A DNA stretch of 42,603 bases. Origin: Prochloron sp. SulCav_FS08_3_32_3330 (GTDB taxonomy: Bacteria > Cyanobacteriota > Cyanobacteriia > Cyanobacteriales > DYNF01). The stretch is from contig DYNF01000026.1 of assembly GCA_020721205.1 (NCBI GenBank), positions 1-42,603 of the forward strand, read 5' to 3'. A program made the position numbers and the translations under genes. Under the pieces are notes generated by a model. That model did no database searches. It was given only the letters and a program-made list of their open reading frames with translations, and was not told where the DNA came from. Shown piece by piece: positions 4,293-31,348 of this stretch. How positions within the stretch are numbered: position 1 is the first letter of the stretch; each line of letters opens with the position of its first letter.

Positions 4293-5408
4293 ATGGCAAG
4301 AAAAAAACATCAATATAATTTTCCTTCGGCTCAAGATACCCCGCCAAAATCAAGATTAGGAATTTCTTTGTCTTCTACTGGACTTGATTTATTAAGTCAA
4401 ATAGCAAAAAAATTAAACTTATCTAAATCTGAATTGGTGGAAAATTTAGCTAGGGGCATAATTAACATTTCTAATGTTAATGAGAAGCCTGAAATTACTT
4501 TAGAAATCACTACTAATTTTCAGGAAACCACAAGTTTGAATAAAAGTCAAGTGATTGTTACAAAAATTAAAGATATTTCCCCTGAAAAAGAGCCTGAATC
4601 TTTAAGTAATGTTAATAATCTTTCTGAAGATCAGCTATTAGAATCAAAAAATGAAACTGTAGAAAATGAAGTTAAATTAACGGAAAATTTAACTCAAGAA
4701 AAAGATAATCTTAAGGAAGAATTACACCAAAAAGATCAGACTTTTGCTCATTTACAAAGACAGTTTGAGGAAAAATCTTTATTAGTTTCTTATCTACAAA
4801 AACAATTGCAAAAATCCCAAAAAAATCATCATGAAGATGAAGCTACTATTATAGAATTGCAACAGGAATTAAAGTTAAAAAATAAGGAATTTGAGACTTT
4901 AACTAAACAATTACATCATCAGCAATTTACTTTTGATAGTAGTCATAAAAATTATAGTCAATTGCAAGAACAAAATAGTGAACAAACTAAAAAAAATAAT
5001 CTTTTAACTCAAGAAATTAGTCAACTTAAAACTAATTTACAAGCAAAAGTTAATGAGGTGATATCTTTAAAAACAAAGATTAATCAGGATTTAAAACAGC
5101 TTGAAAGTTTACAAACTCAATTACAAGAAAGTCAACATTTATTAACAGAAACTAATTATTCTTATGCTCTTTGTTTAGAGGATAATAATGCGAAAATTGG
5201 ACAAATTATTAATTTACAAACTAAGGTTAATCATCAAGAAGTTTTATTGAAAACGGAGGGAAAAAATAAGCTTAGTTTAACGGAAATTATCGCTAATCAA
5301 CAATTACAATTAGAAAAGTTACAAGCAGAACTTAATTGTTTACGAAGTCTTGCTAATTTTGGGGAAAATCAGTTAAATAAATGGCGTAAACGTACTTTTA
5401 ATTCTTAA
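4293..5408 (+). CDS. Ribbon-helix-helix-like N-terminus with long coiled coil
   Basis: A 371-residue soluble protein of unknown function. Residues ~18-55 (RLGISLSSTGLDLLSQIAKK, then LNLSKSELVENLARG) look like a ribbon-helix-helix DNA-binding segment: a short strand, then two helices with a NLSKSEL turn. Residues ~120-355 are an almost continuous Gln/Leu/Lys/Glu-rich coiled coil (LQRQFEEKSLLVSYLQKQL and similar heptads). This architecture recalls KfrA-type nucleoid or partition proteins, which pair an N-terminal DNA-binding domain with a long coiled coil, although KfrA uses a different fold. GAGG 10 nt before the ATG supports the start. The DNA-binding role is inference. No partner gene lies alongside. 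Confidence 0.75.
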   Translation: MARKKHQYNFPSAQDTPPKSRLGISLSSTGLDLLSQIAKKLNLSKSELVENLARGIINISNVNEKPEITLEITTNFQETTSLNKSQVIVTKIKDISPEKEPESLSNVNNLSEDQLLESKNETVENEVKLTENLTQEKDNLKEELHQKDQTFAHLQRQFEEKSLLVSYLQKQLQKSQKNHHEDEATIIELQQELKLKNKEFETLTKQLHHQQFTFDSSHKNYSQLQEQNSEQTKKNNLLTQEISQLKTNLQAKVNEVISLKTKINQDLKQLESLQTQLQESQHLLTETNYSYALCLEDNNAKIGQIINLQTKVNHQEVLLKTEGKNKLSLTEIIANQQLQLEKLQAELNCLRSLANFGENQLNKWRKRTFNS

Positions 5409-17868: not shown

Positions 17869-18483
17869 ATTGTTAAGAAGCAACAGGTTGAAACCTTTTA
17901 ATAAGCTACAGGTTAAAACCTGTAGCTACATAAACAAAACCTGCCTACGCAGGTTAAGAGAAAAAAAACCCGTGAAGACGGGTTTTGTTTAGGTAGCATC
18001 GGGTTTTAACCCGATGCTACAGGTTAAAACCTGTAGCTACATAAACAAAACCTGCCTACGCAGGTTAAGAGAAAAAAAACCCGTGAAGACGGGTTTTGTT
18101 TAGGTAGCATCGGGTTTTAACCCGATGCTACAGGTTAAAACCTGTAGCTACATAAACAAAACCTGCCTACGCAGGTTAAGAGAAAAAAACCCGTGAAGAC
18201 GGGTTTTGTTTGGGTAGCATCGGGTTTTAACCCGTTGTAAAAATCTACGCAGGTTAAGAGAAAAAAAACCCGTGAAGACGGGTTTTGTTTAGGTAGCATC
18301 GGGTTTTAACCCGTTGTAAAAATCTACGCAGGTTAAGAGAAAAAACCCGTGAAGACGGGTTTTGTTTGGGTAGCAGACGGTTTTAACCCGTTGTAAAAAT
18401 CTACACAGGTTAAGAGAAAAAACCCGTGAAGACGGGTTTTGTTTAAGTAGCATCGGGTTTTAACCCGTTGCTAAAATCTAATT
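17869..18483. repeat. Tandem array of palindromic units
   Basis: The 615 bases between two convergent genes are almost entirely repeats. The anchor CTACGCAGGTTAAGAG starts at 17945, 18056, 18167, 18245, 18324 and (as CTACACAGG) 18401. That gives periods of 111, 111, 78, 79 and 77 bases. The long unit holds four hairpins: GCTACAGGTT/AACCTGTAGC, AACCTGC/GCAGGTT, AAAACCCGT/ACGGGTTTT and GTAGCATCGGGTT/AACCCGATGCTAC. The short units lack the first and keep a modified second. The units contain stop codons and change period by non-multiples of 3, so they are not coding. Possible roles are bidirectional termination or REP/BIME-like palindromes; unproven. Confidence 0.9.
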
Positions 18484-19047
18484 TTATCTTTGAGGTCTGT
18501 TGCCATTACGATTAGGTCTTCCTTGACCTTGAGGATTATTATTTTGACCTATACCCGGTCCCCCTTGACCTCGACGATTTTCCATTAATTCAGCCATTTC
18601 AGCCCGTTGACTTTCCGTTAAAACATTGCGCACTTCTAACATACTTTCAAAATGTAAATTACCTAATTCTTGACGCAGACTTAAAACTTCATTATGTTTA
18701 GTGCGAATTTCACTATCAGACGCATTTCCCGCCATTAAATCTCTTAACTCATCTTGTTGGGTGCGTAGTCGTTCCTGTAAAGGCTCTATTCGATCTTGAT
18801 AACTATCACGAATATCTTGCATTTGTTGTTTTTGAGTATCACTCAAATCTAATTGTTCTAACATTCGACCACCCGGACCACCCATTTCTCCATCCATCCC
18901 CTGACCACCACCCGGCATTTGACCCATCATCATCGGTTCGGGAGTGCTAGGAAAATTAGAAGGATTATTAGACTGAGCTAAAACAGGGGGATTCCCAAGA
19001 GTTAAAGCCATTAAACCTACAATCATTGACATACGACGAAATAACAT
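18484..19047 (-). CDS. Spy/CpxP-like periplasmic protein
   Basis: A 187-residue exported protein. The signal peptide ends around VLAQS (residue ~25). A Met/Gly/Pro-rich linker follows (MMMGQMPGGG), then an all-helical domain with LDLSDTQKQQMQDIRDSYQ and VLTESQRAEMAEL. These are the two LTxxQ motifs of Spy/CpxP and periplasmic metal-sensor proteins, which act as chaperones or stress sensors. The C-terminus is Gly/Asn/Gln/Arg-rich. The frame continues upstream, but the ATG at 19047, with AGGAGAAC just before it, gives a normal signal peptide and matches the start of its paralogue. It has its own ECF-type promoter at 19103-19130. Confidence 0.85.
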   Translation of the reverse strand: MLFRRMSMIVGLMALTLGNPPVLAQSNNPSNFPSTPEPMMMGQMPGGGQGMDGEMGGPGGRMLEQLDLSDTQKQQMQDIRDSYQDRIEPLQERLRTQQDELRDLMAGNASDSEIRTKHNEVLSLRQELGNLHFESMLEVRNVLTESQRAEMAELMENRRGQGGPGIGQNNNPQGQGRPNRNGNRPQR

Positions 19048-19102
19048 AATTTTGTTCTCCTGAATAAATTTAAAAAAAAGTAATAAATTAAGTGTCATTG
19101 TT

Positions 19103-19130
19103 TTAGACAAATAGATGATCAAAAAGGTTC
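19103..19130 (-). promoter_or_regulatory. ECF-type promoter of the Spy-like gene
   Basis: Read on the minus strand: GAACC (19126-19130), a 17-base spacer, then GTCTAA (19103-19108). This is the classical ECF sigma -35/-10 pattern, located about 55 bases upstream of the start codon. The same box pair with the same spacing precedes the paralogue and the sigma gene. Confidence 0.8.
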
Positions 19131-19158
19131 AATCATTGAAAAAAAAAATTTTTTCTTT

Positions 19159-19440
19159 CTATCTTCTTACACCTTGAGAATTATTCCCATTATCCTGTCT
19201 TCTTACACCTTGAGGATTATTACCATTATCCTGTCTTCTTACACCTTGAGAATTATTCCCATTATCCTGTCTTCTTACACCTTGAGAATTATTGCTATTA
19301 CCATTACCCTGTCTTCTTTGAGTTTGATGATTTTCTCTTAAAGTTCCATTACAATCGGTATTAGACTGAGCTAAAACAGGCAAACTCCCAAGAGTTAAAG
19401 CCATTAAACCTGCAATCATTGACATACGACGAAATAACAT
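19159..19440 (-). CDS. Truncated, repeat-bearing paralogue of the Spy-like protein
   Basis: A 93-residue exported protein. Its signal peptide (MLFRRMSMIAGLMALTLG, then VLAQS) is nearly identical to that of the neighbouring Spy-like protein. The mature part is only a low-complexity tail: a 12-residue unit RRQDNGNNSQGV repeated about four times. The helical LTxxQ domain is missing. Promoter, leader and signal peptide are a duplicate of the neighbour's. It is either a decayed duplicate or a small secreted Asn/Arg-rich peptide. Confidence 0.7.
   Translation of the reverse strand: MLFRRMSMIAGLMALTLGSLPVLAQSNTDCNGTLRENHQTQRRQGNGNSNNSQGVRRQDNGNNSQGVRRQDNGNNPQGVRRQDNGNNSQGVRR
19162..19305. repeat. 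36-bp tandem repeat, four copies
   Basis: Units start at 19162, 19198, 19234 and 19270 with an exact 36-base period. They encode the 12-residue repeat at the C-terminus of the Spy-like paralogue. Because the period is a multiple of three, copy-number change would keep the reading frame. Confidence 0.9.
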
Positions 19441-19494
19441 AATTTTGTTCTCCTGAATAAATTTAAAGAAAGTAATAAATTAACTATCATTGTT

Positions 19495-19522
19495 TTAGAC
19501 AAACAGATGATCAAAAAGGTTC
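19495..19522 (-). promoter_or_regulatory. ECF-type promoter of the Spy-like paralogue
   Basis: Minus strand: GAACC (19518-19522), 17-base spacer, GTCTAA (19495-19500), about 54 bases before the ATG. It is nearly identical in sequence to the promoter at 19103-19130, as part of a segmental duplication. Confidence 0.8.
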
Positions 19523-19570
19523 AATCATTGAAAAAAAAATTTTTGATCATCTCAATACTAAATTTGTTAA

Positions 19571-19939
19571 TTATTCACTGAAACTTAACTCCGCTTCAAA
19601 ATCAGATTGAGCATCAGTATAAGAGGTTTCTCCCATCGTCCCATACCAACCATTAATCAAAAATAGTTCTAACTCCTCATCAGTAACTATTTGAGCCATT
19701 TGATATTTAGACGAAAACCAACCCGTTCCACCCCAAACCAAGAGTAAACCAGCGATCGCACTAGAAACAAACCAGAATAAACGACGGCGAGAAAGAGGAG
19801 ATTTTGCTTGAGGAAGATGATTAACTTTCAGTATTAACTGAGCGTCAAAATCCTCTTTAATAATTGGAGGAACAGGGCGATTATGTTTGAGAAAAGTGAT
19901 TAATTTTTGATCATCTTGATCCGGGGGAAAGCGAGTCAT
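19571..19939 (-). CDS. Membrane-anchored anti-sigma factor-like protein
   Basis: A 122-residue single-pass protein. A cytoplasmic N-terminal ~50 residues (LITFLKHNRPVPPIIKEDF) precede a membrane span at ~54-74 (WFVSSAIAGLLLVWGGTGWF), and a short periplasmic tail follows. Position and topology are those of an anti-sigma factor: its ATG overlaps the sigma gene stop by 4 bases (ATGA), so the two are translationally coupled. It lacks the zinc-binding HxxxCxxC motif of the ZAS class, so binding to the sigma factor is inferred from context. The periplasmic Spy-like protein made next door is a plausible signal partner. Confidence 0.75.
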   Translation of the reverse strand: MTRFPPDQDDQKLITFLKHNRPVPPIIKEDFDAQLILKVNHLPQAKSPLSRRRLFWFVSSAIAGLLLVWGGTGWFSSKYQMAQIVTDEELELFLINGWYGTMGETSYTDAQSDFEAELSFSE

Positions 19940-20514
19940 AATGAAACTCCTTTTTCTGTAAGATATTGACGAACGGCATTTCGGGCATAAAAAAGACGAG
20001 ATTTGACCGTTCCGGTCGGTATTCCCAAAATTTGACTAATCTCCTTTTGAGAAATATCCTCTAAATCATGTAAAACTAAAATCATCCGATGATCAAGACT
20101 CAACTGTTTTAATGCTTGTGCGACTAAATCTTGATAATGTAACTGCATTAAATCCGAAGTATCTTGAGAAACAGAAAGAGTATTATTCAAGATATCCTCC
20201 TGTTCTTGAGTCATAGTATTAACCGGATTAAGAGCATAATAACGACGTTGATCCGTTGCTACATTCCAAGTTATTCGATATAACCAAGTAGAAAAAGTAG
20301 CTAAATTTCTCAGTTTAGGTAAACCCTTCCAGACCCTTAAAAAAACTTCTTGAACTAAATCATCTAAATATTCTATTCCACAAAGTTGATAAAGAGTAGA
20401 GCGAACTTTTGCCAAATATTGCCGATACAGAAGTCGAAAGGCATTTTGATCCCCCTTCTGACATTGTTTAATTAATTTAATTAAATTTTCTGTATCAGTT
20501 TGCTCCGCTAACAC
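19936..20514 (-). CDS. ECF (group 4) RNA polymerase sigma factor
   Basis: A 192-residue sigma-70 family protein with only regions 2 and 4. Region 2 contains DDLVQEVFLRVWKGL and FSTWLYRITWNVATDQRR. Region 4 contains LDHRMILVLHDLEDIS and the helix-turn-helix ISQILGIPTGTVKSRL. It directs RNA polymerase to stress promoters. The arrangement sigma, anti-sigma, then Spy-like protein resembles my recollection of the SigH region (sll0856-sll0858) of Synechocystis; that correspondence is not verified. Its own upstream region carries the same GAACC-17-GTCTA signature, implying autoregulation. Confidence 0.92.
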   Translation of the reverse strand: MLAEQTDTENLIKLIKQCQKGDQNAFRLLYRQYLAKVRSTLYQLCGIEYLDDLVQEVFLRVWKGLPKLRNLATFSTWLYRITWNVATDQRRYYALNPVNTMTQEQEDILNNTLSVSQDTSDLMQLHYQDLVAQALKQLSLDHRMILVLHDLEDISQKEISQILGIPTGTVKSRLFYARNAVRQYLTEKGVSL

Positions 20515-20556
20515 GGTTTTTTCTCCTTCACCAGATTTTAGTTAATTGTCATAGAT

Positions 20557-20584
20557 TTAGACAAGAGAAAGAACCAAAAGGTTC
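20557..20584 (-). promoter_or_regulatory. ECF-type autoregulatory promoter of the sigma gene
   Basis: Minus strand: GAACC (20580-20584), 17-base spacer, GTCTAA (20557-20562), about 45 bases before the sigma start codon. The box pair and spacing equal those of the two Spy-like genes, although the spacer sequence differs. This makes it independent of the segmental duplication. Confidence 0.8.
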
Positions 20585-20646
20585 AATTTTTGCTCAAAAA
20601 TTTTTTCATCTAAGAATTGTAGAGATTAAGTTCTGTACTATCAAAA

Positions 20647-20770
20647 AAATATAAAAATGTCAAGAGTCATTTTGCTTAAACATAAATTAAAGAAATTAAC
20701 AAATAAACTTAACAAAAATTAATAAAAAAGTTGATCAAAATAAGTTAAATTGAATATAGGTCTTAAATTA
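20647..20770. repeat. Direct repeat flanking the Rpn pair, left copy
   Basis: Begins AAATATAAAAATGTCAAGAG, continues through a CATTTTGCTTAAA stretch and AACTTAACAAAAATTAAT, and ends near TCTTAAATTA. About 120 bases are largely identical to 22777-22900. Confidence 0.85.
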
Positions 20771-20833
20771 ATAAATATACCTTCCCTTTAAAGTTAAGAT
20801 CTTGATCCATTTGAGTGAAAAGAGGTAAATTTT

Positions 20834-21775
20834 ATGAGATTTTTAGATCCAAAAAATGATTATGTATTTAAAAGAATCTTTGGCTCAGATCAAAGTCATG
20901 ATATTTTAATGAGTTTTCTTGATGCCATTTTATATGAAGGTAAAGGGAAAATCGAAGATTTAGAAATATTAAATCCCTATTCAGCCGGAGCTACTTTTGA
21001 TTTAAAAGATACTTATCTTGATGTGAAAGTAAAATTAAAAAATAACACCACTGTGTTAATAGAAATGCAATTATCAAATCGTTTTGCTTTTGATAAAAGA
21101 GTAATGTATAATGCTTGTAAAATTTATGCAAATCAATTAGAATCAGGGGAAAAATATTACTTATTAAATCCCGTGATAGCATTAACAATTATGGATTTTA
21201 CTTTATTTGAAAATAGTCCGGCAATTATTAATAGTTTTGTCTTTAAAGAAGAAAAGCAAAATTATAATTATAATGAAGAAATAAAATTAGTATTTGTGGA
21301 ATTATCAAAATTTAATAAGCAATTAGAACAGTTAGAAACCTTAGCAGAAAAATGGCTTTACTTCTTAAAAAATGCTCAATTATTAAGGGAAAAACCTGAG
21401 ACTTTAGAAGTAATACCCGAATTAGATAATGCCTTAGAAATAGCTAATCTTTCAGGGTTAAGTAGAGACGAATTAGAAGAAATCCAAAGAAGACAAATGT
21501 TTCTAACAGATCAAGAAACTATTACTTTATTTGCTAAAGAAAAAGGTCGTCAAGAAGGTCGTCAAGAAGGTCGTCAAGAAGGTCGTCAAGAAGGTATAGA
21601 GTTGGGACAGAAAAATTTAGTTTTACGTCAAGTCAAAAAAATAATCCCAGAAATAACACCCGAAATCGAAACACAAATTAATGATTTATCAATCGAAAGT
21701 ATTGAATTATTAGGAGAAGAATTATTTAATTTTAATTCTCTTGATGATTTAATTAATTGGTTAAATTCTTATTAG
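20834..21775 (+). CDS. Rpn family recombination-promoting nuclease, copy 1
   Basis: A 313-residue PD-(D/E)XK nuclease of the Rpn family (annotated as PDDEXK_2 or putative transposase). The start MRFLDPKNDYVFKRIFG is characteristic. The active-site residues are the Asp pair in DLKDTYLDVKVKL and the ExQ in VLIEMQLSNRFAFDKR. The domain ends near residue 230. It is followed by a hydrophilic repeat (GRQE four times, 12-base DNA unit) and a C-terminal helical region. Rpn proteins cut DNA and promote RecA-independent recombination in E. coli; a defence role has also been proposed. It is tandem with a similar gene 18 bases downstream. GAGG precedes the ATG. Confidence 0.88.
   Translation: MRFLDPKNDYVFKRIFGSDQSHDILMSFLDAILYEGKGKIEDLEILNPYSAGATFDLKDTYLDVKVKLKNNTTVLIEMQLSNRFAFDKRVMYNACKIYANQLESGEKYYLLNPVIALTIMDFTLFENSPAIINSFVFKEEKQNYNYNEEIKLVFVELSKFNKQLEQLETLAEKWLYFLKNAQLLREKPETLEVIPELDNALEIANLSGLSRDELEEIQRRQMFLTDQETITLFAKEKGRQEGRQEGRQEGRQEGIELGQKNLVLRQVKKIIPEITPEIETQINDLSIESIELLGEELFNFNSLDDLINWLNSY
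21541..21594. repeat. 12-bp intragenic tandem repeat
   Basis: Four copies of GGTCGTCAAGAA (about 21545-21592) encode the EGRQ repeat of the first Rpn protein. The unit is in frame, so slippage would change protein length without a frameshift. Confidence 0.85.
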
Positions 21776-21793
21776 TAAAGGAGGTAAACTTTT

Positions 21794-22744
21794 ATGAGAT
21801 TTTTAGACCCAAAAAATGATTATGTTTTTAAAAGAATCTTTGGTTCAGATCAAAGTCATGATATTTTAATTAGTTTTCTCAATGCTATTTTATATCAAGA
21901 ACAACCCGTAATAGAAGATTTAGAAATCTTAAATCCTTATGCTCCGGGTGCAAATTTTGAATTAAAAGATACCTATTTAGATGTGAAAGCTAAATTAAAT
22001 AATGGCACTACTGTGTTAATAGAAATGCAGTTAGCAAATCGTTTTGCTTTTGATAAAAGAGTAATGTATAATGTGAGTAAAGCCTATTCAAATCAATTAG
22101 AAATGGGGGAAAATTATCTCTTATTAAAACCCGTAATAGGTTTAACAATTATTAACTTTATTATGTTTGAAGAAAGTCAAAAAATTATTAATAGTTTTTT
22201 GTTTAAAGAAGAAGAATTAAACTTAAAATATAATCAAGAAATGAGATTAGTATTTGTAGAATTACCGAAATTTAAGAAAGAATTAAAGGAATTAGAAACG
22301 GTAAAAGAAAAATGGCTTTATTTCTTAAAAAATGGTTCGGAATTGAGAGAAAAACCGGAATCAATGGCAAGAATACCAGAATTAAATAATGCCTTAGAAA
22401 TAGCTAATCGTGCGGGATTGACCATAGATGAATTAGAAGTAATCCAAAAAAGACAAATGTTTTTAACGGATCAGGAAGCTATTACTTTATTTGCTAAAGA
22501 AAAAGGTCGTCAAGAGGGTATTCAAGAGGGTATTCAAGAAGGGATTGAATTAGGAATTGAACAAGGTATTCAAAAACAGAAAAATTTAGTTTTACGTCAA
22601 GTCAAAAAAATAATCCTAGAAATAACACCCGAAATTGAAACAAAAATTAATGATTTATCAATCGAAAGTATTGAATTATTAGGAGAAGAATTATTTGATT
22701 TTCAGTCTCTTGATGATTTAATTAATTGGTTAAATTTAAAATAG
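21794..22744 (+). CDS. Rpn family recombination-promoting nuclease, copy 2
   Basis: A 316-residue close paralogue of the preceding gene, with the same start (MRFLDPKNDYVFKRIFG), the same DLKDTYLDVKAKL and LIEMQLANRFAFDKR catalytic elements, and a similar C-terminus (LGEELFDFQSLDDLINWL). The repeat is different: EGIQ/EGIE-type units (EGIQEGIQEGIELGIEQGIQ). The pair clearly arose by tandem duplication and has since diverged. Both copies keep the catalytic residues, which argues that both are maintained. Probably co-transcribed with copy 1. Confidence 0.88.
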   Translation: MRFLDPKNDYVFKRIFGSDQSHDILISFLNAILYQEQPVIEDLEILNPYAPGANFELKDTYLDVKAKLNNGTTVLIEMQLANRFAFDKRVMYNVSKAYSNQLEMGENYLLLKPVIGLTIINFIMFEESQKIINSFLFKEEELNLKYNQEMRLVFVELPKFKKELKELETVKEKWLYFLKNGSELREKPESMARIPELNNALEIANRAGLTIDELEVIQKRQMFLTDQEAITLFAKEKGRQEGIQEGIQEGIELGIEQGIQKQKNLVLRQVKKIILEITPEIETKINDLSIESIELLGEELFDFQSLDDLINWLNLK

Positions 22745-22933: not shown

Positions 22934-25900
22934 ATGAATCAGAAAAAATCCACTCAAACTTTAAAATCCATACTTCAAACTTTAACCAGTGTATTTCTGA
23001 ACTGGCTTAATTTATTCTGGCAAATCATCAGAGGATTTGTCTTATTTATTAAGAAAAAAATCACGAAATTTAAGAGACAACTAAGACAAACAAAGGTTAA
23101 TAACCATAAAATTAATACCCCCTTTTCACTTCAAGAAAGGGGTCAATTTGGTAATATCAAAAAACAACGCCCTACGTTATATCAATATTTAAAATTATTT
23201 ACCCCCAAATTCCGCTTTAAATCATGGAAATGGAAAAGATTTATCCTTTCCATGACTATGACCTTTATTTTAACCCTACAATTTACGGGGATTAATTGGT
23301 GGCAGTTACCCCAACCTGCTCATGCGGCGGCTAGTTTAAGTATTGAACCTTTAACATGGGATTTTGTGGGTTTAGATAGCAATAAACCAGACGCACCCGA
23401 TAATCAAGGACCGAAAGATTATATGGTAGGTTCAAGGGTTTGTAATATGGGAGATGAACCCGTTAGAGATGTAACAGTACAATATCATAATGATGGGGTA
23501 GACAACGGTTATACCTACATTAATATCGCTACAGATACCTTATATCTCGACTATTTACCACCGAATCTCAATACTATTCCCGGAACTATTGCTACCATAC
23601 CCGGAGGATATACCTTTGAAACTGGTGGTATTCCTAACGCTACTAAATACGAAATTAACTATACTCCTACCAATTGTGCGGACTTTTATATTAATTTTGA
23701 CGTAGATCGTAATACCGACGCATGGCATACTACCCAAAAATATTATATGGAGGCTACCGCTAAATCTTCGGCTGGGGCGTTAGTAGGACCAGTGAGAACA
23801 CCCCAACCTCGTCAGATCTATATTGAACAATTAATATCCCAAGCCCGTAACGAGGTTAGAAGTTTTGGTTGTAGTGTGGCTGGTGGTGCTTTTCAACAAT
23901 ACACAGTTAATGTTGCAGTAGGGGATGTGATGATCTGTACGGCGGTAGGACATACCTCCACTGCTTATCCTCAGTTAAGTTTTACGGCTAATTTTCCCAA
24001 TGTCATTTTCCAAATTTTAGATGTTAATACGAGTTATTCTAACCCAATAGGAGGTAAAAATAGTGCGGTTTATGCTGATGGTTGTGGTTGGGTGCAGGAT
24101 CCCACTAGCCCAGATTATCACCGAAGCCCGACTAACTGTGCAGGTGCCGGTTGGCCCGGTCAATATACGGATAACTCAGGGGGTGAAGGTACAGGTTTAG
24201 ATGTAGTTACAAATTATACGGTTAAAGTTCTGAGTAAACCTACAGGATCAACGGTGGAAGTTTCTAATATTGTGTTGGACTTTTCCGGTGGTAGTTTTCA
24301 CTATAATTCTGATTATGGCACAGACTTTTGTGGTACTACTGACAATACAAACTGTATTATTATTAATTTTGAGGAAGAAAATTCTGATTTAAGTATTATT
24401 AAAAGTCACGATGGTAATTTTATTCTAGGTGCTAATCAATACACCATGACTATTACTGATGATAATAATAGTGTTCCTGCTAAAGATATTAAATTCTATG
24501 ATACTTTACCCGTTGGTTATACCTTTAATACGGCTGATTTAATTGCCAATGATGGAGTAGGACAAGATGGCACAAAATGGTATTGTACGATCACGGATCC
24601 TAGTGCCTTTGGCGGTCAAGACAGGAGTGTTGTCTGTAATTATACTAATGGTACTTTTTTAACTAAAACTGATGACTTCTTTGATCATACAGATCCTCAA
24701 ACTTTAATTTTTAATGTTATTGTTGCCTCACCTCCGGCTTCCACTAATAGCACGAATACGGCTTGTGTTAAGGCTTCAAATGATCTAAATACAGCGAATA
24801 ATTGTGATCCTGATCCCACGACTTTAATTTTTGGTCCGAATATTGAATTAACAAAAGATGATTCTTCAACCGGATCAATTGAGCCAAGAACAGCAAAAAC
24901 AAATGAAACCTTTGTGGCAGGTGGCACTCAAACCTATCGCTTTCAAGTGGCAAAAACCACTGATGCTTATAATGTCAATGGACCTTTAACCCTTGTGGAT
25001 ACTTTACCCACAGGTGTTACTTATGTAAGTAATAACGGTAATGATGGTTGGTCATGTAGTGCAAATGGTCAAATTGTAACTTGTACAAGGGCAACAGGAT
25101 TAACTGGACTTACTACCGATACCACTTCTAAAACTACCTTTGCCATGACGGTGGCTGTGTCTTTAAATGCCGTAGATATGGATAGCGGTACGGCAGGAGT
25201 ACAGGTTATTAATACTGCTACTGTTACCAGTGGTAGTTTAGATGTTAACCCCAATGATAATACAGATACCCAGAAAAATACAGTAACGATACCTGCACCT
25301 GATTTAACCATTGATAAAACCGATAATAGTTTACCTTTTATTTTCAACAATACAACTCCGGTTAATAGTGTTTATATCTTTACTATTGCTAATAAAAGTA
25401 CAGCCGGAACAATTACCACCACTGGACCTTTAGTATTTCAGGATATTTTACCTTCTCACTTAAACTTAGTATCAGCAGGAAATGCGCCGGGTAGTACAGG
25501 CTGGACTTGTACTCCTTCTGGTGCAACTACCGCTCCTACCCCACCTACGGCTATCCCTTTAGCCGCACCAACTTATAATGATCCCGTTGGTTCTGTAGGT
25601 GTAACTGTTAATTGTACCAATCCTAATCCCTTACCTCCGGGAGCTAGTACCCAAATTCGTTTAGTTATTAATCCTAATTTTAATCCGCCGGGAAATGGTG
25701 CTAATTACAATATTGGCAACCGTGCTACCGTGACAACCCAAGGAGAAACTAATTTTGATTTTGGGGATGATCCGGCTAACGGATCAGGAGATACTAATAA
25801 TATCTGTAAGGCAAGAAATCCAGTTATTACCACTGCTAACTGTGATGAAGAAATTACCAACATTATTGATAGTGCCAACTCCATTGACGTGGCATCTACG

Positions 25901-28900
25901 AAGATTGTCAGAGATACAGCACCCCCTGCTACCTATCCTACAACACCTGTCCCTCCTACTTCTATTTCAACGATTGCACCCGGATCCACCATCTACTATT
26001 CAATTTTACTCAACACTACTGCTATAGGACAGGGTGCTACAAATATCACTGGTACGGGTACATTTACTGATACGATCCCTGCGGGAATTACGGGTATTAG
26101 TGCTACTTGTACTGTATCCGGCAATGGTGGCTCAGGTGGGGGTTCAAATCTTTGTTGTACACCTTCTATTTCTGGTAATACGATAACTTGTAATGGTTAT
26201 AGCTTAAGAAAGGGCGGCACCAAAGGACTTGATGATCAACTCAGAATTAATGTTGTGGGGACAGTTAATTCCACTTTTGCTGGAAATTTAGTTAATACGG
26301 CAATTGTGGGTCTAAGTGCGGGTTTAGATGAAGATCCCACTAATAACATTAGTACAGTAGTAACTTATGTACCCGGGGCTGATCTAAGTATTACCAAAAA
26401 TGCTTTTAGTAATTTTACAGTAGGTACAGACTCAATTTATACTTTAACGGTTAAAAATGAAAGCCCGTCTACAGCACCTAATAACTTCAGCACCACTGGT
26501 TTAATTACAGTCAGAGATAAATTACCTACTCAATTAGATTTTGTTTCGGCGGCTGGATCAGGTTGGTTTTGTAATTATGATAATACAACTCGTGTTGTTA
26601 CTTGTACTACTACTCAAGTTTTAGCACCCCAAGCTACCAGTGTCATTAATTTAACTGTTAAACCAAATTTAGCAGGGTCTGTTACTAATGCCGCTAGTTT
26701 ACAATATGGCGGTGATCCCTTAGATGATGATGAAAATGGCTTTTATGTAGGTGGTGGAAATAGTGTTACTGATGATGTGAATGGTAACGGGATGTTTGAT
26801 ACTGGAGATGACCCTAATAGTAATGATTTTGATGCAAAAACTACCACAGTAATAGCCCCTAATGTGGACTTAAATATTACGAAAACGGCTCAAACGGCTT
26901 TTCCTTTAGGTCAACAGGCAACTTATCGCATTAATGTGGCTAATCATAATGCAGTGGGAGCTACTGCGGCGATCGCACCGATTACGGTAACGGATCAACT
27001 ACCACAGGGAGTTAATTTCGTCTATGCTTCCACTGTTACAGGAAGCCCTTGGGTTTGTACATCCACAACTAATGCACTACCTGATAATAATAACAATGGC
27101 ATTGTAGACGCAGGAGACGGGGATTTTAATCCGGGACCACCGATCACACCGATTAATGATGGTTTTGAAACTGTTAGCTGTACTCGTTATACCAATATTG
27201 CTCCTAATGAAACAGCAACTTTTGATCTCAATGTCTTAGTGACAGCTAGTGCTAATACCGCCGCACCTATTACTAATAATGTGCGTGTCACTAGCAGTAG
27301 TGATATTTGTAAAGATTTTACTAATGGTAATTGTACTGATACTGTCACTCCGGTAGACACTAATCCTGCAAATGATACGAATAGTCAACCTAATGATAAT
27401 AAAACTACTTTAAATGTTAATGTAACTCCTGCGTCTGACTTAACTATCTATAAAAAAGCGATTACTCAAACTTCTCAAATTAATCCCCCTCAATTTTTAG
27501 TAGATAATACGGGACAGTTTGAAATAACGGTAGTTAATAATGGACCTTCCACTTATACTGGTTTGATTACTTTTACCGATGCTTTAAATAATAACTTTAC
27601 TTTTTCATCAGGAAGTGGAGGTGGGTTTATTTGTGAGAATTCAGGTCAAAATGTTACCTGTGAGACTAAATCACCTATCACCTCACCCCCCACCCCCACC
27701 CCCATAACTTTAAATCCCGGTGCTTCAGCCGTTGTGAAAATTAATGTCACTGTGGCAAATACACCAACGGCGGCGATCACTGATACGGGTGCAGATCAAG
27801 CAGGAGATAATATTAGTAATCTTGCAAAGATTACCAGCCCCGTTACTACCCCTATTATTCCTAACTCTAGTAATACTGATATGAATAATGACAGTGGAAC
27901 GGAGATCGTTGATATTGAGCCATTTGTGGCTGATTTAGTCTTACAAAAAGATGATGGTGATGGAGAATATGCCCTGACCCCTTCTACTCATAATGGTGTG
28001 GGAGCTTTATTTGATGAGCCTCTTTTAACTCAAAATCGTCAGTATTTTTCCACAAGTAATACTGCACCTCCCGGAGGTGGTTCATGGAAGGGAGCTTATA
28101 CCCTAGAAGTAACCAACAAGGGACCAGCGATCGCTAAATATCCTGTAAAAATTACCGATACTTTACCCACAGGATTAACCTTTAGTAGTGCTAATGGTGT
28201 CGGTTGGACTTGTGGTGCTGTTCTTCAAGTTGTTACCTGTACATACGATATTGCTACGGATAAAAATGGTGATCTCACAATTGATAATAACGATGATTTC
28301 TTAAGATCAGGGGAAAATACAGGAGTACAAATTATTGTTAATGTAGATCATGCTCTTGTTACAGGGGATCCTGATAATGATGGTGCGATCGGACGAGTTA
28401 CCAATAGTGCTACTATCACCAGTGGAACAACAGATAGTAATAATTCTAATAATACCAATAGTGAAATTACGATTATTCGAGAAGCGGCGGATCTTTCTGT
28501 CACGAAAACAGATAGTGCTGATCCCATTTCTTTAGGTGCTTCATTTACCTATACTGTCACTATTCATAATGATACCCCCGGCTATACAGGAGATATAGTA
28601 GGACCTATTTATGCTACGGATTATTTACCCACAGGTGTGGTTTATGATGGTAGTAATACCACAGCCGGAACTACTGTGGATATTACCAGTAGTAATACAG
28701 GTACAGCTTCTTGTACTTGGCGACTGGTGACAAGTGGCGGTAATTATGTGAGTTTTGTCTGTGATGATGGAACATTTGGCGGTACTTATCCAAACTTAGC
28801 TAATCTTTCTACCAGTTCTTTTACCTTCAAAGTGAAAGTTAATGATCCCACTGTGCAGTCTATTGAGAAAAACTTAGTACGGGTGGGAGCTAGTATAGAT

Positions 28901-31348
28901 GAACCAGATAATCCGGATCAGGTAATCTGCGATCGCACGGATCCTCCTTTCATTGCTCCTTATAGTCGTATCAATGTTCCTCTTGGTAGAACTAATAATT
29001 GTTCCATTGAGCCAACAACTATTACAGGGGCGAAAAATGCTGATTTAGTGATTATTAAACAAGCAGGAGCAAATAATAATGATAATCCTCCCGCCGAAAG
29101 TTTAAATAATGAAGATCCTTTCACCTATACCTTTACTGTTAGTAATAATGGGGCTGATGATGCTCAACAGGTATTATTAAAAGATGTATTTCCTGACGGT
29201 GTAATACCAGTAGACGCTAATGCAGGAACTCCGGGTATTCAGATTACCTATACTATTAATGCGGGACATACGACAAGCACAACCCCTTATGATTCTGATT
29301 TAACCACTCCGGCTATTGAACCGACAATAGTTACCCGAACTTGTAGTTATAATGAAGGTGCTAATACCTTCTCTTGTAAGTTATATACGGTTTCTAGCAC
29401 AGAAAAAACCGGAGGAACAGGTCCAATTATTATTACCCTCAATATGAAGGTAAATACGGCTTCAGGTACTCCTAGTAATGAGGCTACTTTAGAAAGCAGT
29501 ACCAGTGATAATACTCAGAATAATAATTGTACTGCTAATAGTTTCACCAATACTGCTATTACTAATTGTGATCTGGAATTAATTCAAGTTGGTACTGTCA
29601 CCGCTACCCTAGATTTTGGAGATGCGCCTAATATCTATAAAACAACTTCAGCCAGTGGTGGTCCCAGTCATACTCCTAGCACTAATCTCTTGATGGGTAC
29701 AAATGCCACTGACACTGAAAGTGATGCTCCTGCTACTTTAGATGGTACAGGAGATGATACCACAGGCACAGATGATGAAGATGGGGTTACTTTTGGTCCT
29801 TTAGTGGCAACAGTAAACGCTTATAGTGTTAAAGTGAAAGTAACTAATACCACAGGTAGTAATGCTTATTTAGCAGGTTGGATTGACTTTAATCAAAATA
29901 GTACATTTGAAGCCGGAGAAGGGGTTGTTTATGACTTTGATCCGAGTACAGCAGGAATACAACCTATTCCCACAGGTACAAATGGTAGTAATATCACTTT
30001 AAACTGGACTGGTTTATCAGGAATTACCACAGGTAATACTTATGCTCGTTTTCGCATCAGTGATCAGACTTTAGCGACCACTGACTTTGAAGGTGCTAAA
30101 GGTATTGGGGAAGTGGAAGATTATCCTTTAACAATTATTCCAGTTGGTGCTTATAAATCAGTTCAATTAACCACTGATGCTAATAGCAATAATCAAATTG
30201 ATCCGGGTGATAAAGTCACATGGACGATCAAGTACATTAATACAGGTACAGTAGACATTTCTGATTTTAATGTCAGTGATACGATTGATACTGCTGAGTT
30301 AACTTATGTTACTGGTACTTTAGCTATTGCTACTAATACGGCTCAAAGTGTTCCGGCGGGTAATGTACCTACAGTTAATACTAATTATGACGGTACTAAT
30401 ACTCATCCTAACTTCTTTGATAGTCCAGTTTTGTTTAAAGCAGGAGGTTTAATTACCATTACTTTCCAAACTGAAGTTAAAGCAGGTGTCTCAGTCACAA
30501 AATATAACCAAGCCACAGGCACAGATCCAGCTTCAACTAAAACCGATAATGTGGACAATACTACTACAGGTTTACCCGCAGGTGTAAGTGTTACTATGGG
30601 TAGTATTGCTCAAACTCAAACGGCGGCGATCGAGCCTACTACTATTACCCTTGGTGCAGAAAAACCGAATATTATCCTCTTAAAAAGGATTACGGGAGTT
30701 TATCGCCAAAATACACCTGTTGTAACTAATCAACTTCAACCTTTTTCTCTCTTTCATGAAAATGGTGCTGATCCTAACGATGATCCGGCTGAGTGGAAGA
30801 ATAATAAGTTTCCAGCGTTTAATGCTGATGGTATTTATTTAGGAGATACTCCCACTAATCCTGAAAATAATGCTTATTTACGAGGTGCGATCGATGGCGG
30901 TTTAGTGGAATCCGATGATGAGATTGAATTTACTATTTATTTCGTCAATAAAGGTGGTGCTAATGCTACTAATGTAACTTTATGTGATCTTGTACCCGCT
31001 AATCTTGATTTTGTAGCTAATGCTTATGGATCGGGTAAAGGGATCGCAGTCTCCTTTGATGCTACTAAATTAAATCTTGAGCCTAATCTTTTCTATTCTA
31101 ATGCTAATGGTGATGATGAAGGTACTTTCTTTGCACCCGGAGTAGATACCACTGCTACTACTCCTAAATGTCCTTTTGATAATGATGGTTCAGCACCTCC
31201 GCCTTTAGGTGCTGATGATTTAGCTGATAATACTGATGGTGTAGTAGCGGTAGATTTAGGTACAGTGCCTTATGCTATCCCTTGGAATGATCCGAACCCG
31301 AAATATGATTCTTATGGGTTTATCCGTTTTAGAGCGAAAGTTAAATAG
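22934..31348 (+). CDS. Giant secreted DUF11/GEVED repeat surface protein
   Basis: A 2804-residue predicted cell-surface or secreted protein. A ~100-residue Lys/Arg-rich N-terminal extension precedes a signal-peptide-like hydrophobic segment (~104-125, FILTLQFTG) ending at PQPAHAA (about 133). After a ~350-residue unique region come about ten DUF11-type Ig-like repeats, starting near 485, 635, 790, 982, 1150, 1310, 1502, 1666, 1853 and 2037. Each opens with a DLxIxK-type strand. Most carry a Trp-x-Cys...Val-x-Cys pair that may form a disulfide. A GEVED domain lies at ~2226-2395 (LDFGDAPNIY, GWIDFNQN, GEVEDYPL), and two more repeats follow. Asp-rich EF-hand-like loops are at ~1264-1290, 1384 and 1776. 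No PEP-CTERM or sortase tail is seen. Probable adhesin or envelope layer protein; inferred. Confidence 0.85.
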   Translation: MNQKKSTQTLKSILQTLTSVFLNWLNLFWQIIRGFVLFIKKKITKFKRQLRQTKVNNHKINTPFSLQERGQFGNIKKQRPTLYQYLKLFTPKFRFKSWKWKRFILSMTMTFILTLQFTGINWWQLPQPAHAAASLSIEPLTWDFVGLDSNKPDAPDNQGPKDYMVGSRVCNMGDEPVRDVTVQYHNDGVDNGYTYINIATDTLYLDYLPPNLNTIPGTIATIPGGYTFETGGIPNATKYEINYTPTNCADFYINFDVDRNTDAWHTTQKYYMEATAKSSAGALVGPVRTPQPRQIYIEQLISQARNEVRSFGCSVAGGAFQQYTVNVAVGDVMICTAVGHTSTAYPQLSFTANFPNVIFQILDVNTSYSNPIGGKNSAVYADGCGWVQDPTSPDYHRSPTNCAGAGWPGQYTDNSGGEGTGLDVVTNYTVKVLSKPTGSTVEVSNIVLDFSGGSFHYNSDYGTDFCGTTDNTNCIIINFEEENSDLSIIKSHDGNFILGANQYTMTITDDNNSVPAKDIKFYDTLPVGYTFNTADLIANDGVGQDGTKWYCTITDPSAFGGQDRSVVCNYTNGTFLTKTDDFFDHTDPQTLIFNVIVASPPASTNSTNTACVKASNDLNTANNCDPDPTTLIFGPNIELTKDDSSTGSIEPRTAKTNETFVAGGTQTYRFQVAKTTDAYNVNGPLTLVDTLPTGVTYVSNNGNDGWSCSANGQIVTCTRATGLTGLTTDTTSKTTFAMTVAVSLNAVDMDSGTAGVQVINTATVTSGSLDVNPNDNTDTQKNTVTIPAPDLTIDKTDNSLPFIFNNTTPVNSVYIFTIANKSTAGTITTTGPLVFQDILPSHLNLVSAGNAPGSTGWTCTPSGATTAPTPPTAIPLAAPTYNDPVGSVGVTVNCTNPNPLPPGASTQIRLVINPNFNPPGNGANYNIGNRATVTTQGETNFDFGDDPANGSGDTNNICKARNPVITTANCDEEITNIIDSANSIDVASTKIVRDTAPPATYPTTPVPPTSISTIAPGSTIYYSILLNTTAIGQGATNITGTGTFTDTIPAGITGISATCTVSGNGGSGGGSNLCCTPSISGNTITCNGYSLRKGGTKGLDDQLRINVVGTVNSTFAGNLVNTAIVGLSAGLDEDPTNNISTVVTYVPGADLSITKNAFSNFTVGTDSIYTLTVKNESPSTAPNNFSTTGLITVRDKLPTQLDFVSAAGSGWFCNYDNTTRVVTCTTTQVLAPQATSVINLTVKPNLAGSVTNAASLQYGGDPLDDDENGFYVGGGNSVTDDVNGNGMFDTGDDPNSNDFDAKTTTVIAPNVDLNITKTAQTAFPLGQQATYRINVANHNAVGATAAIAPITVTDQLPQGVNFVYASTVTGSPWVCTSTTNALPDNNNNGIVDAGDGDFNPGPPITPINDGFETVSCTRYTNIAPNETATFDLNVLVTASANTAAPITNNVRVTSSSDICKDFTNGNCTDTVTPVDTNPANDTNSQPNDNKTTLNVNVTPASDLTIYKKAITQTSQINPPQFLVDNTGQFEITVVNNGPSTYTGLITFTDALNNNFTFSSGSGGGFICENSGQNVTCETKSPITSPPTPTPITLNPGASAVVKINVTVANTPTAAITDTGADQAGDNISNLAKITSPVTTPIIPNSSNTDMNNDSGTEIVDIEPFVADLVLQKDDGDGEYALTPSTHNGVGALFDEPLLTQNRQYFSTSNTAPPGGGSWKGAYTLEVTNKGPAIAKYPVKITDTLPTGLTFSSANGVGWTCGAVLQVVTCTYDIATDKNGDLTIDNNDDFLRSGENTGVQIIVNVDHALVTGDPDNDGAIGRVTNSATITSGTTDSNNSNNTNSEITIIREAADLSVTKTDSADPISLGASFTYTVTIHNDTPGYTGDIVGPIYATDYLPTGVVYDGSNTTAGTTVDITSSNTGTASCTWRLVTSGGNYVSFVCDDGTFGGTYPNLANLSTSSFTFKVKVNDPTVQSIEKNLVRVGASIDEPDNPDQVICDRTDPPFIAPYSRINVPLGRTNNCSIEPTTITGAKNADLVIIKQAGANNNDNPPAESLNNEDPFTYTFTVSNNGADDAQQVLLKDVFPDGVIPVDANAGTPGIQITYTINAGHTTSTTPYDSDLTTPAIEPTIVTRTCSYNEGANTFSCKLYTVSSTEKTGGTGPIIITLNMKVNTASGTPSNEATLESSTSDNTQNNNCTANSFTNTAITNCDLELIQVGTVTATLDFGDAPNIYKTTSASGGPSHTPSTNLLMGTNATDTESDAPATLDGTGDDTTGTDDEDGVTFGPLVATVNAYSVKVKVTNTTGSNAYLAGWIDFNQNSTFEAGEGVVYDFDPSTAGIQPIPTGTNGSNITLNWTGLSGITTGNTYARFRISDQTLATTDFEGAKGIGEVEDYPLTIIPVGAYKSVQLTTDANSNNQIDPGDKVTWTIKYINTGTVDISDFNVSDTIDTAELTYVTGTLAIATNTAQSVPAGNVPTVNTNYDGTNTHPNFFDSPVLFKAGGLITITFQTEVKAGVSVTKYNQATGTDPASTKTDNVDNTTTGLPAGVSVTMGSIAQTQTAAIEPTTITLGAEKPNIILLKRITGVYRQNTPVVTNQLQPFSLFHENGADPNDDPAEWKNNKFPAFNADGIYLGDTPTNPENNAYLRGAIDGGLVESDDEIEFTIYFVNKGGANATNVTLCDLVPANLDFVANAYGSGKGIAVSFDATKLNLEPNLFYSNANGDDEGTFFAPGVDTTATTPKCPFDNDGSAPPPLGADDLADNTDGVVAVDLGTVPYAIPWNDPNPKYDSYGFIRFRAKVK

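Follow-up and report, generated by a model that had tools for sequence, protein, structure and literature searches.

What controls a small cluster of minus-strand genes in which an extracytoplasmic function (ECF) sigma factor, a single-pass membrane protein and a secreted Spy-family protein stand together behind promoter boxes of one type, and how far does that control reach? The cluster lies in a stretch of 42,603 nucleotides (nt) from Prochloron sp. SulCav_FS08_3_32_3330 (contig DYNF01000026.1 of assembly GCA_020721205.1; genome of 4.73 Mb), and by 'the window' we always mean that whole stretch. Our answer, in which we have good confidence, is that it would be a SigH module, made up of a membrane anti-sigma factor, autoregulation, a Spy protein and a two-tier cascade through SigB. 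The case is built on gene types, gene coupling, promoter conservation, genome-wide promoter specificity and an association of the same promoter with sigB. An earlier sequence-only reading of the window had proposed an autoregulated envelope-stress circuit of ECF sigma factor, membrane anti-sigma factor and exported Spy proteins; conservation and promoter specificity speak for the circuit, while 'envelope stress' is suggested by protein types (a Spy-type chaperone, to which some relatives add an M48 protease and RND/HlyD pumps).

Are the promoters real?

The three minus-strand boxes first noticed, GAACC-N17-GTCTAA, are indeed present, at 20584-20557, 19522-19495 and 19130-19103, with a spacing of exactly 17 in each. 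Within the 42.6-kb window GAACC-N15-19-GTCTA matches three times, always at this locus; the number expected for the window is 0.16, and in 100 shuffles a count of three never came up. The whole-genome scan proposed by the sequence-only reading, for GAACC-N16-18-GTCTA, gave six matches against 11 for a backwards control, which makes the loose core useless as a standalone search motif; because it is not rare in the genome, the motif was learned from the promoters of relatives. A scan with the sigma protein furnished 80 related loci, nearly all cyanobacterial, of which 75 carry a GAAC-N18-GTC site 5' of their sigma gene, with a T before GAAC in every one of these 75 SigH-type promoters. It is because of this conservation that we judge the sigma-gene box to be real. 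Of the five misses, one is explained by a contig that breaks off just 5' of the gene (L029) and three belong to distant, non-cyanobacterial sigma factors of 30-33% identity (L084-L086), leaving L031, with a best matrix score of 0.3, as the genuine miss.

The consensus that emerges from the relatives' sigma promoters, TTGAACCTTT-N14-GTCTAAA, spans 17 positions; close relatives weigh less in the matrix (28 distinct boxes from 75 promoters) but not in the count of 75 loci. In the 4.73-Mb genome it has three full matches, which are the three reported boxes, none at one mismatch and three at two. At up to three mismatches the count is 52 against 57 in the control, and among the two- and three-mismatch sites of the window's own genome recurrent or envelope-related targets were not found, many of these sites lying inside long open frames. 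Conservation in 75 loci and genome-wide specificity support the view that autoregulatory promoters of this sigma type can be predicted from sequence. A variant motif, GAACCTTT-N14-GTC, was set aside; it added one genome site, in a coding region that by inspection resembles a nonribosomal peptide synthetase condensation domain. Loose motif counts are also inflated by one genome (G004, with loci L112, L126 and others), where the unit of a tandem repeat, recurring about every 33 nt, itself matches GAACCTTT-N14-GTC.

The features of the locus, in the order in which they would be transcribed, are these:

20616..20644, minus strand: possible housekeeping promoter, TTGATA-17-TACAAT (10 of 12), 5' of the ECF promoter; a consensus match only
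20556..20586, minus strand: predicted SigH-type promoter, TTGAACCTTT-N14-GTCTAAA, serving the sigma operon; transcription predicted to start about 35 nt 5' of the GTG
19936..20514, minus strand: ECF sigma factor, inferred SigH type, 192 amino acids, GTG start; Sigma70_r2/r4_2, NCBIfam PRK12518
19571..19939, minus strand: putative membrane anti-sigma factor, 122 amino acids; called from topology, position and conservation
19494..19524, minus strand: promoter copy 2, preceding the short secreted-protein gene
19159..19440, minus strand: short exported protein, 93 amino acids; Spy signal peptide followed by a 36-nt (12-amino-acid) tandem repeat, Spy core absent
19102..19132, minus strand: promoter copy 3, preceding spy
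18484..19047, minus strand: Spy/LTXXQ-family periplasmic protein, 187 amino acids; PF07813 at 8e-15
18167..18480, minus strand: four repeats of 77 nt immediately 3' of spy, all of them containing a terminator-like ACCCGTCTTCACGGGT hairpin

Which sigma factor is this?

That it is an ECF factor is clear from its Pfam matches (Sigma70_r2 and r4_2, with no region 3), and against NCBIfam PRK12518 it scores 281 bits with a cut-off of 208. In Synechocystis salina and Picosynechococcus PCC 7117 the best-matching protein shares 57-59% identity with it, against some 30-33% for the next ECF paralogue in those two organisms and about 32% for the other ECF protein of its own genome. Position then suggests a name. 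In PCC 7117 the SigH-type gene lies at 2.212 Mb and the SigG-type gene at 2.077 Mb, and the PCC 7002 gene numbers given in excerpts of PMC2758279 (A2111 for SigH, A1970 for SigG) show equal spacing, at about 1.05 kb per gene; this is a fit of positions to gene numbers. From that fit, together with the promoter type, we infer that the window sigma factor is of SigH type, and the same excerpts report an RpoE-like start for sigH (PMC2758279).

Might the boxes instead be read by SigG, another ECF factor, whose published motif is GGAAC/GTC (PMC8155712, in part)? The two motifs are close, and GGAAC-type sites do stand 5' of SigG-type genes both in the window's own genome and in PCC 7117, but the base before GAAC, a G in the SigG motif, is T in 75 of 75 sigma promoters and in all 29 of the sigB sites described below, and neither an anti-sigma nor a Spy homologue lies beside the six other ECF genes checked. 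We regard a SigG reading of the boxes as very unlikely, and continue with SigH.

How was the locus put together?

Sigma and anti-sigma genes are coupled just as first proposed, the sigma stop and the anti-sigma start overlapping by 4 nt, and the two genes are neighbours in 76 of the 80 loci. A Spy gene is present in 75 of 80, usually as third gene of the operon, and its reading frame begins no more than 150 nt from the anti-sigma stop in 70 of 78 cases. Spy genes with a promoter of their own are rare: the matrix finds 4 among 78, and a regular expression finds 6 among 78 external Spy genes against 15 of 396 control open reading frames, so that an own Spy promoter is rejected as a general rule. 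The earlier claim that Spy sits under its own box is true in the window, whereas most relatives serve Spy by operon read-through. Given how closely Spy follows the anti-sigma gene and how seldom it has a separate promoter, the ancestral form was most likely a three-gene operon with a single autoregulatory promoter, and the rarity of separate promoters would make the layout in the window derived: on this comparison, spy has here acquired its own promoter, and a further duplicate, of promoter and signal peptide together, would drive a short repeat protein. Independent gains of promoters are seen before Spy in L032 and L040 (three copies) and before the second Spy gene of L064. The case of L040, an Oscillatoriales genome, resembles the promoter multiplication of the window, with three tandem full-consensus promoters between anti-sigma gene and spy (4872-5136), two of them 77 nt apart with identical spacers.

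How old are the copies? The Spy and short-gene regions (promoter plus signal peptide) represent one duplication, 91-92% identical, and their N14 spacers agree at 13 of 14 positions; the sigma copy agrees at 7 of 14. The sigma box had been placed outside the duplication on account of its different spacer, and the spacer does differ, but its flanks resemble the Spy promoter region: outside the boxes too, the two regions are alike at 38 of 74 positions, which 3 of 5000 shuffles reach. The Spy promoter may therefore derive from the sigma promoter by an earlier round of copying. All this copying, both the recent duplication and the likeness beyond the boxes, lends something to the idea that the sigma promoter alone is functional and the other two are passive by-products of duplication. 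We think this improbable, considering that all 17 consensus positions were kept in the three copies while their flanks diverged, and that extra Spy promoters arose independently in L032, L040 and L064.

Is the Spy protein a chaperone or a sensor?

The partner proteins were compared in alignments from which near-identical sequences had been removed (65 of 76 anti-sigma and 63 of 78 Spy sequences kept). The 122-residue membrane protein would be an anti-sigma factor, judging from its position, its topology and the matches of 22 of 66 alignment members to NCBIfam NF052375 'anti-sigma factor' (best 8.2e-6). In its model, two helices on the cytoplasmic side are followed by a membrane helix at 51-77 and a periplasmic helix at 87-102, and the last of these carries an E-x-F-x4-W motif in which E91, F93 and W98 are conserved in 61, 60 and 65 of the 66 members, respectively. 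The window Spy, with a signal peptide recognised by inspection, is the only LTXXQ match in the whole genome; all 64 members of its alignment match PF07813 and 60 of 64 match Pfam Metal_resist, and of its two LTxxQ motifs L66, Q72, L143 and Q147 are invariant. In a profile search of solved structures, Spy itself came first (3oeo, 1.8e-11), followed by ZraP (6e-4) and CpxP (4e-3), with CnrX not listed. The Spy model is a helical hairpin with a core predicted local distance difference test (pLDDT) score above 90.

An alternative comes from the nickel/cobalt system CnrYXH, namely that the Spy-type protein works less as a chaperone than as a sensor or co-inhibitor in the periplasm, where it would sit on the periplasmic helix of the anti-sigma factor and so govern the release of the sigma factor. 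The cnrYXH cluster is made up of these three gene types too, CnrX is the top Foldseek match of the Spy model, Metal_resist is nearly universal in the alignment, the periplasmic helix is conserved, and Spy remains with the sigma/anti-sigma pair in 75 of 80 loci; the anatomy of the anti-sigma factor, two short cytoplasmic helices and one membrane helix, is also that of CnrY. Against this, the Foldseek match is weak (6e-3), and on structural realignment ZraP, CnrX, CpxP and unrelated hairpins are near-tied (Z 11.4 to 9.6), and a choice between chaperone and sensor therefore cannot be made from the fold. By sequence the protein is closest to Spy, and hhalign gives a probability of 3% with CnrX and of 0.1% with CnrY. 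The histidine H119 of CnrX, a metal ligand, aligns to S135, a position that is mostly S or Q in relatives and not conserved; metal sensing through the CnrX site is not supported at this, the one ligand compared. On balance we consider CnrYXH-like sensing unlikely and keep the chaperone as the preferred role within the SigH module.

The plural 'Spy-like proteins' of the sequence-only reading does not survive, since the supposed paralogue (19440-19159) has no LTXXQ core and no Pfam match, and it is the signal peptide alone that aligns well with Spy (25 of 31 residues identical). In place of the Spy core, a 36-nt repeat runs through 19162-19300 in 3.9 copies and encodes units of the GVRRQDNGNNSQ kind. 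The letters NNPQG, which resemble this repeat, occur also in the tail of Spy itself.

Does the regulon reach beyond the locus?

This is where our view departs most clearly from the idea of a 'self-contained' regulon, which is doubtful because the promoter also stands 5' of sigB in 29 of 48 relatives and, in a weaker form, before the genome's own sigB. For this comparison 520 nt upstream were fetched for sigB in 48 SigH-bearing genomes and for a SigD-like gene in 39, without sites being picked beforehand. The sigB set is 48 of 49 genomes, G080 being omitted (its best match, at 61%, looked like SigD), and the SigD controls are 39 of 47 listed matches, one of the others lying at a contig end and seven being omitted. 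Above the 99% shuffle score are the 29 sigB regions, 1 of 39 SigD regions and, with the matrix reversed, 1 of 48, a contrast between sigB and SigD with a Fisher value of 2.7e-9 from genomes that are related and so not independent. The positive sites are spread over 16 of 31 genera, all have T before GAAC and a 14-nt gap, and 25 of 29 lie between -107 and -222; a fixed core, TGAAC-N18-GTC, is found in 28 of 48 sigB regions, in none of 39 SigD regions and not at all backwards. Twelve of the 48 genomes were first noticed through their sigB site; when these are set aside, the positives number 17 of 36.

The window genome's own sigB (C78) has CTGAACTTTT-N13-GTCTCAA at about -149, which scores 18.9 after a spacer penalty, where the highest of 960 shuffles scores 18.5. 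The proposed target has the regions 1.2-4 of a group-2 sigma factor (Pfam) and scores 656 bits against NF004615, the SigD model being just passed as well (525 against 524). The copy in PCC 7117, at 1.267 Mb, fits A1202, and among the matches listed a more distant SigD-like copy (63%) fits A1832; A1202 is SigB of PCC 7002 in excerpts of PMC2758279. The group-2 sigma factor downstream of the promoter is, by these matches, SigB, which passages of PMC8875361 describe as heat- and light-induced in Synechocystis.

A wider scan of the phylum, allowing at most one mismatch, returned 67 sites in 49 of 292 genomes against 38 control matches (summed by hand). The window apart, there are 64 sites, and for 62 of them a reading frame of at least 60 residues lies within 350 nt; the genes they precede are SigH-type sigma factors (32), group-2 sigma factors (12), HlyD-type adaptors (5), Spy-like genes (4) and a DUF1800 gene (1), the mixed remainder probably including chance matches. 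The HlyD calls were checked in Pfam for L212 and L189, and L239, L241 and L242 are 82-89% identical to L212. A two-mismatch scan of 20 genomes added two AcrB-type pumps and an M48 peptidase, as candidates only.

How might it work, and what speaks against it?

We picture the single-pass anti-sigma factor holding SigH at the membrane until envelope damage frees it, whereupon SigH would recognise TTGAACCTTT-N14-GTCTAAA promoters and start transcription there. Its own operon would be switched on, giving positive feedback together with fresh inhibitor; spy would be switched on to supply a periplasmic chaperone; and in the window genome the duplicated promoter and signal peptide would drive the repeat-containing secreted protein. 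Across cyanobacteria a further probable target of SigH is sigB, whose product is a group-2 sigma factor of the general stress response, so that the cascade would have two tiers. A bolder version, in which SigH stands above SigB in many cyanobacteria and passes periplasmic damage into the heat and light programme, while Spy acts as a feedback sensor on the E-x-F-x4-W helix, we offer tentatively and with some doubt; both Spy feedback on the anti-sigma factor and stress release of the sigma factor would be part of it.

A number of observations weigh against the module as we have drawn it, beginning with the rarity of separate Spy promoters (4 of 78). The window anti-sigma protein itself has no Pfam match and no recognised anti-sigma domain in Pfam or NCBIfam, and it found no counterpart among solved structures, either in a profile search or in a search of the PDB with its model. 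No sigB site is recognisable in 19 of 48 SigH-bearing genomes, and the site in the window genome is a weaker version, departing from the consensus by three mismatches and having a spacer that is shorter by one base. In Synechocystis, according to parts of PMC5386190, sigB has at least four starts, and an antisense RNA covers about 200 nt of its heat-induced 5' untranslated region; the heat-induced start described there has no obvious fit to our predicted start near -143. Loss of function in a Synechocystis sigH mutant left tolerance intact under every stress tried (PMC3264485, in excerpt), and sigH was induced late after heat (parts of PMC3264485 and PMC2758279). Copper was considered as an inducer and dropped, sigH being listed as decreased in the portion of a Synechocystis copper study that bears on it (PMC4182526).

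What is new here? ECF autoregulation is ordinary. Excerpts of a 2009 review give no SigH-controlled genes as known (PMC2758279), and in open-licence papers we did not find SigH targets, the three-gene conservation, a SigH consensus or the sigB association in print. Extended SigH motifs were predicted by Todor et al. 2020, as cited in passages of PMC8155712, and a form of the consensus may therefore already be published. With three sites in 4.7 Mb, the consensus is exact enough to provide a target list, on which spy, sigB and the sigH operon would be joined in some lineages by genes for RND/HlyD pumps. If true, the sigB link would explain part of the coupling between envelope damage and the general stress response in cyanobacteria.

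What surrounds the cluster?

The four-repeat hairpin block after spy is likely the end of the transcript. It forms part of an array of 77- and 111-nt repeats at 17905-18480, directly 3' of spy, each bearing the ACCCGTCTTCACGGGT terminator-like hairpin; a scan of region 17900-20850 counted 12 terminator-like sites against 2.3 expected. On the other side, a tandem pair of genes of the PDDEXK_2 transposase family, with DUF4351, occupies 20834-22744 and is divergent from the sigma operon, with near-identical N termini (the Pfam scan covered the first of the two), followed at 22934-31348 by a reading frame of 2804 amino acids whose repeated units resemble, by inspection, DUF11 surface proteins.

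How does it compare with known systems?

The nearest known system is cyanobacterial SigH itself (Sll0856 of Synechocystis PCC 6803, SYNPCC7002_A2111), with which the window sigma factor shares the position fit and for which an RpoE-like start is published; the difference is that in the window Spy and a duplicated secreted gene carry promoters of their own. The SigG/SapG pair is similar in joining an ECF sigma factor to a co-transcribed small partner and in its promoter core, but SigG has G before GAAC where the window type has T and was found without a Spy neighbour; the other ECF protein of the window's genome is about 32% identical. CnrYXH of Cupriavidus metallidurans likewise has neighbouring genes for an ECF sigma factor, a small single-pass anti-sigma factor and a periplasmic protein of Spy fold, but in the order Y-X-H where the window has H-Y-X, and its Y and X proteins have no significant sequence relation to those of the window. 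With Spy, CpxP and ZraP of E. coli, which are regulated by the Cpx/Bae two-component systems, the window Spy shares two LTXXQ motifs and the same helical-hairpin fold, whereas it would itself be placed under an ECF sigma factor. Group-2 SigB of cyanobacteria, finally, is the proposed second tier of the cascade, and the present analysis predicts that an ECF factor controls it.

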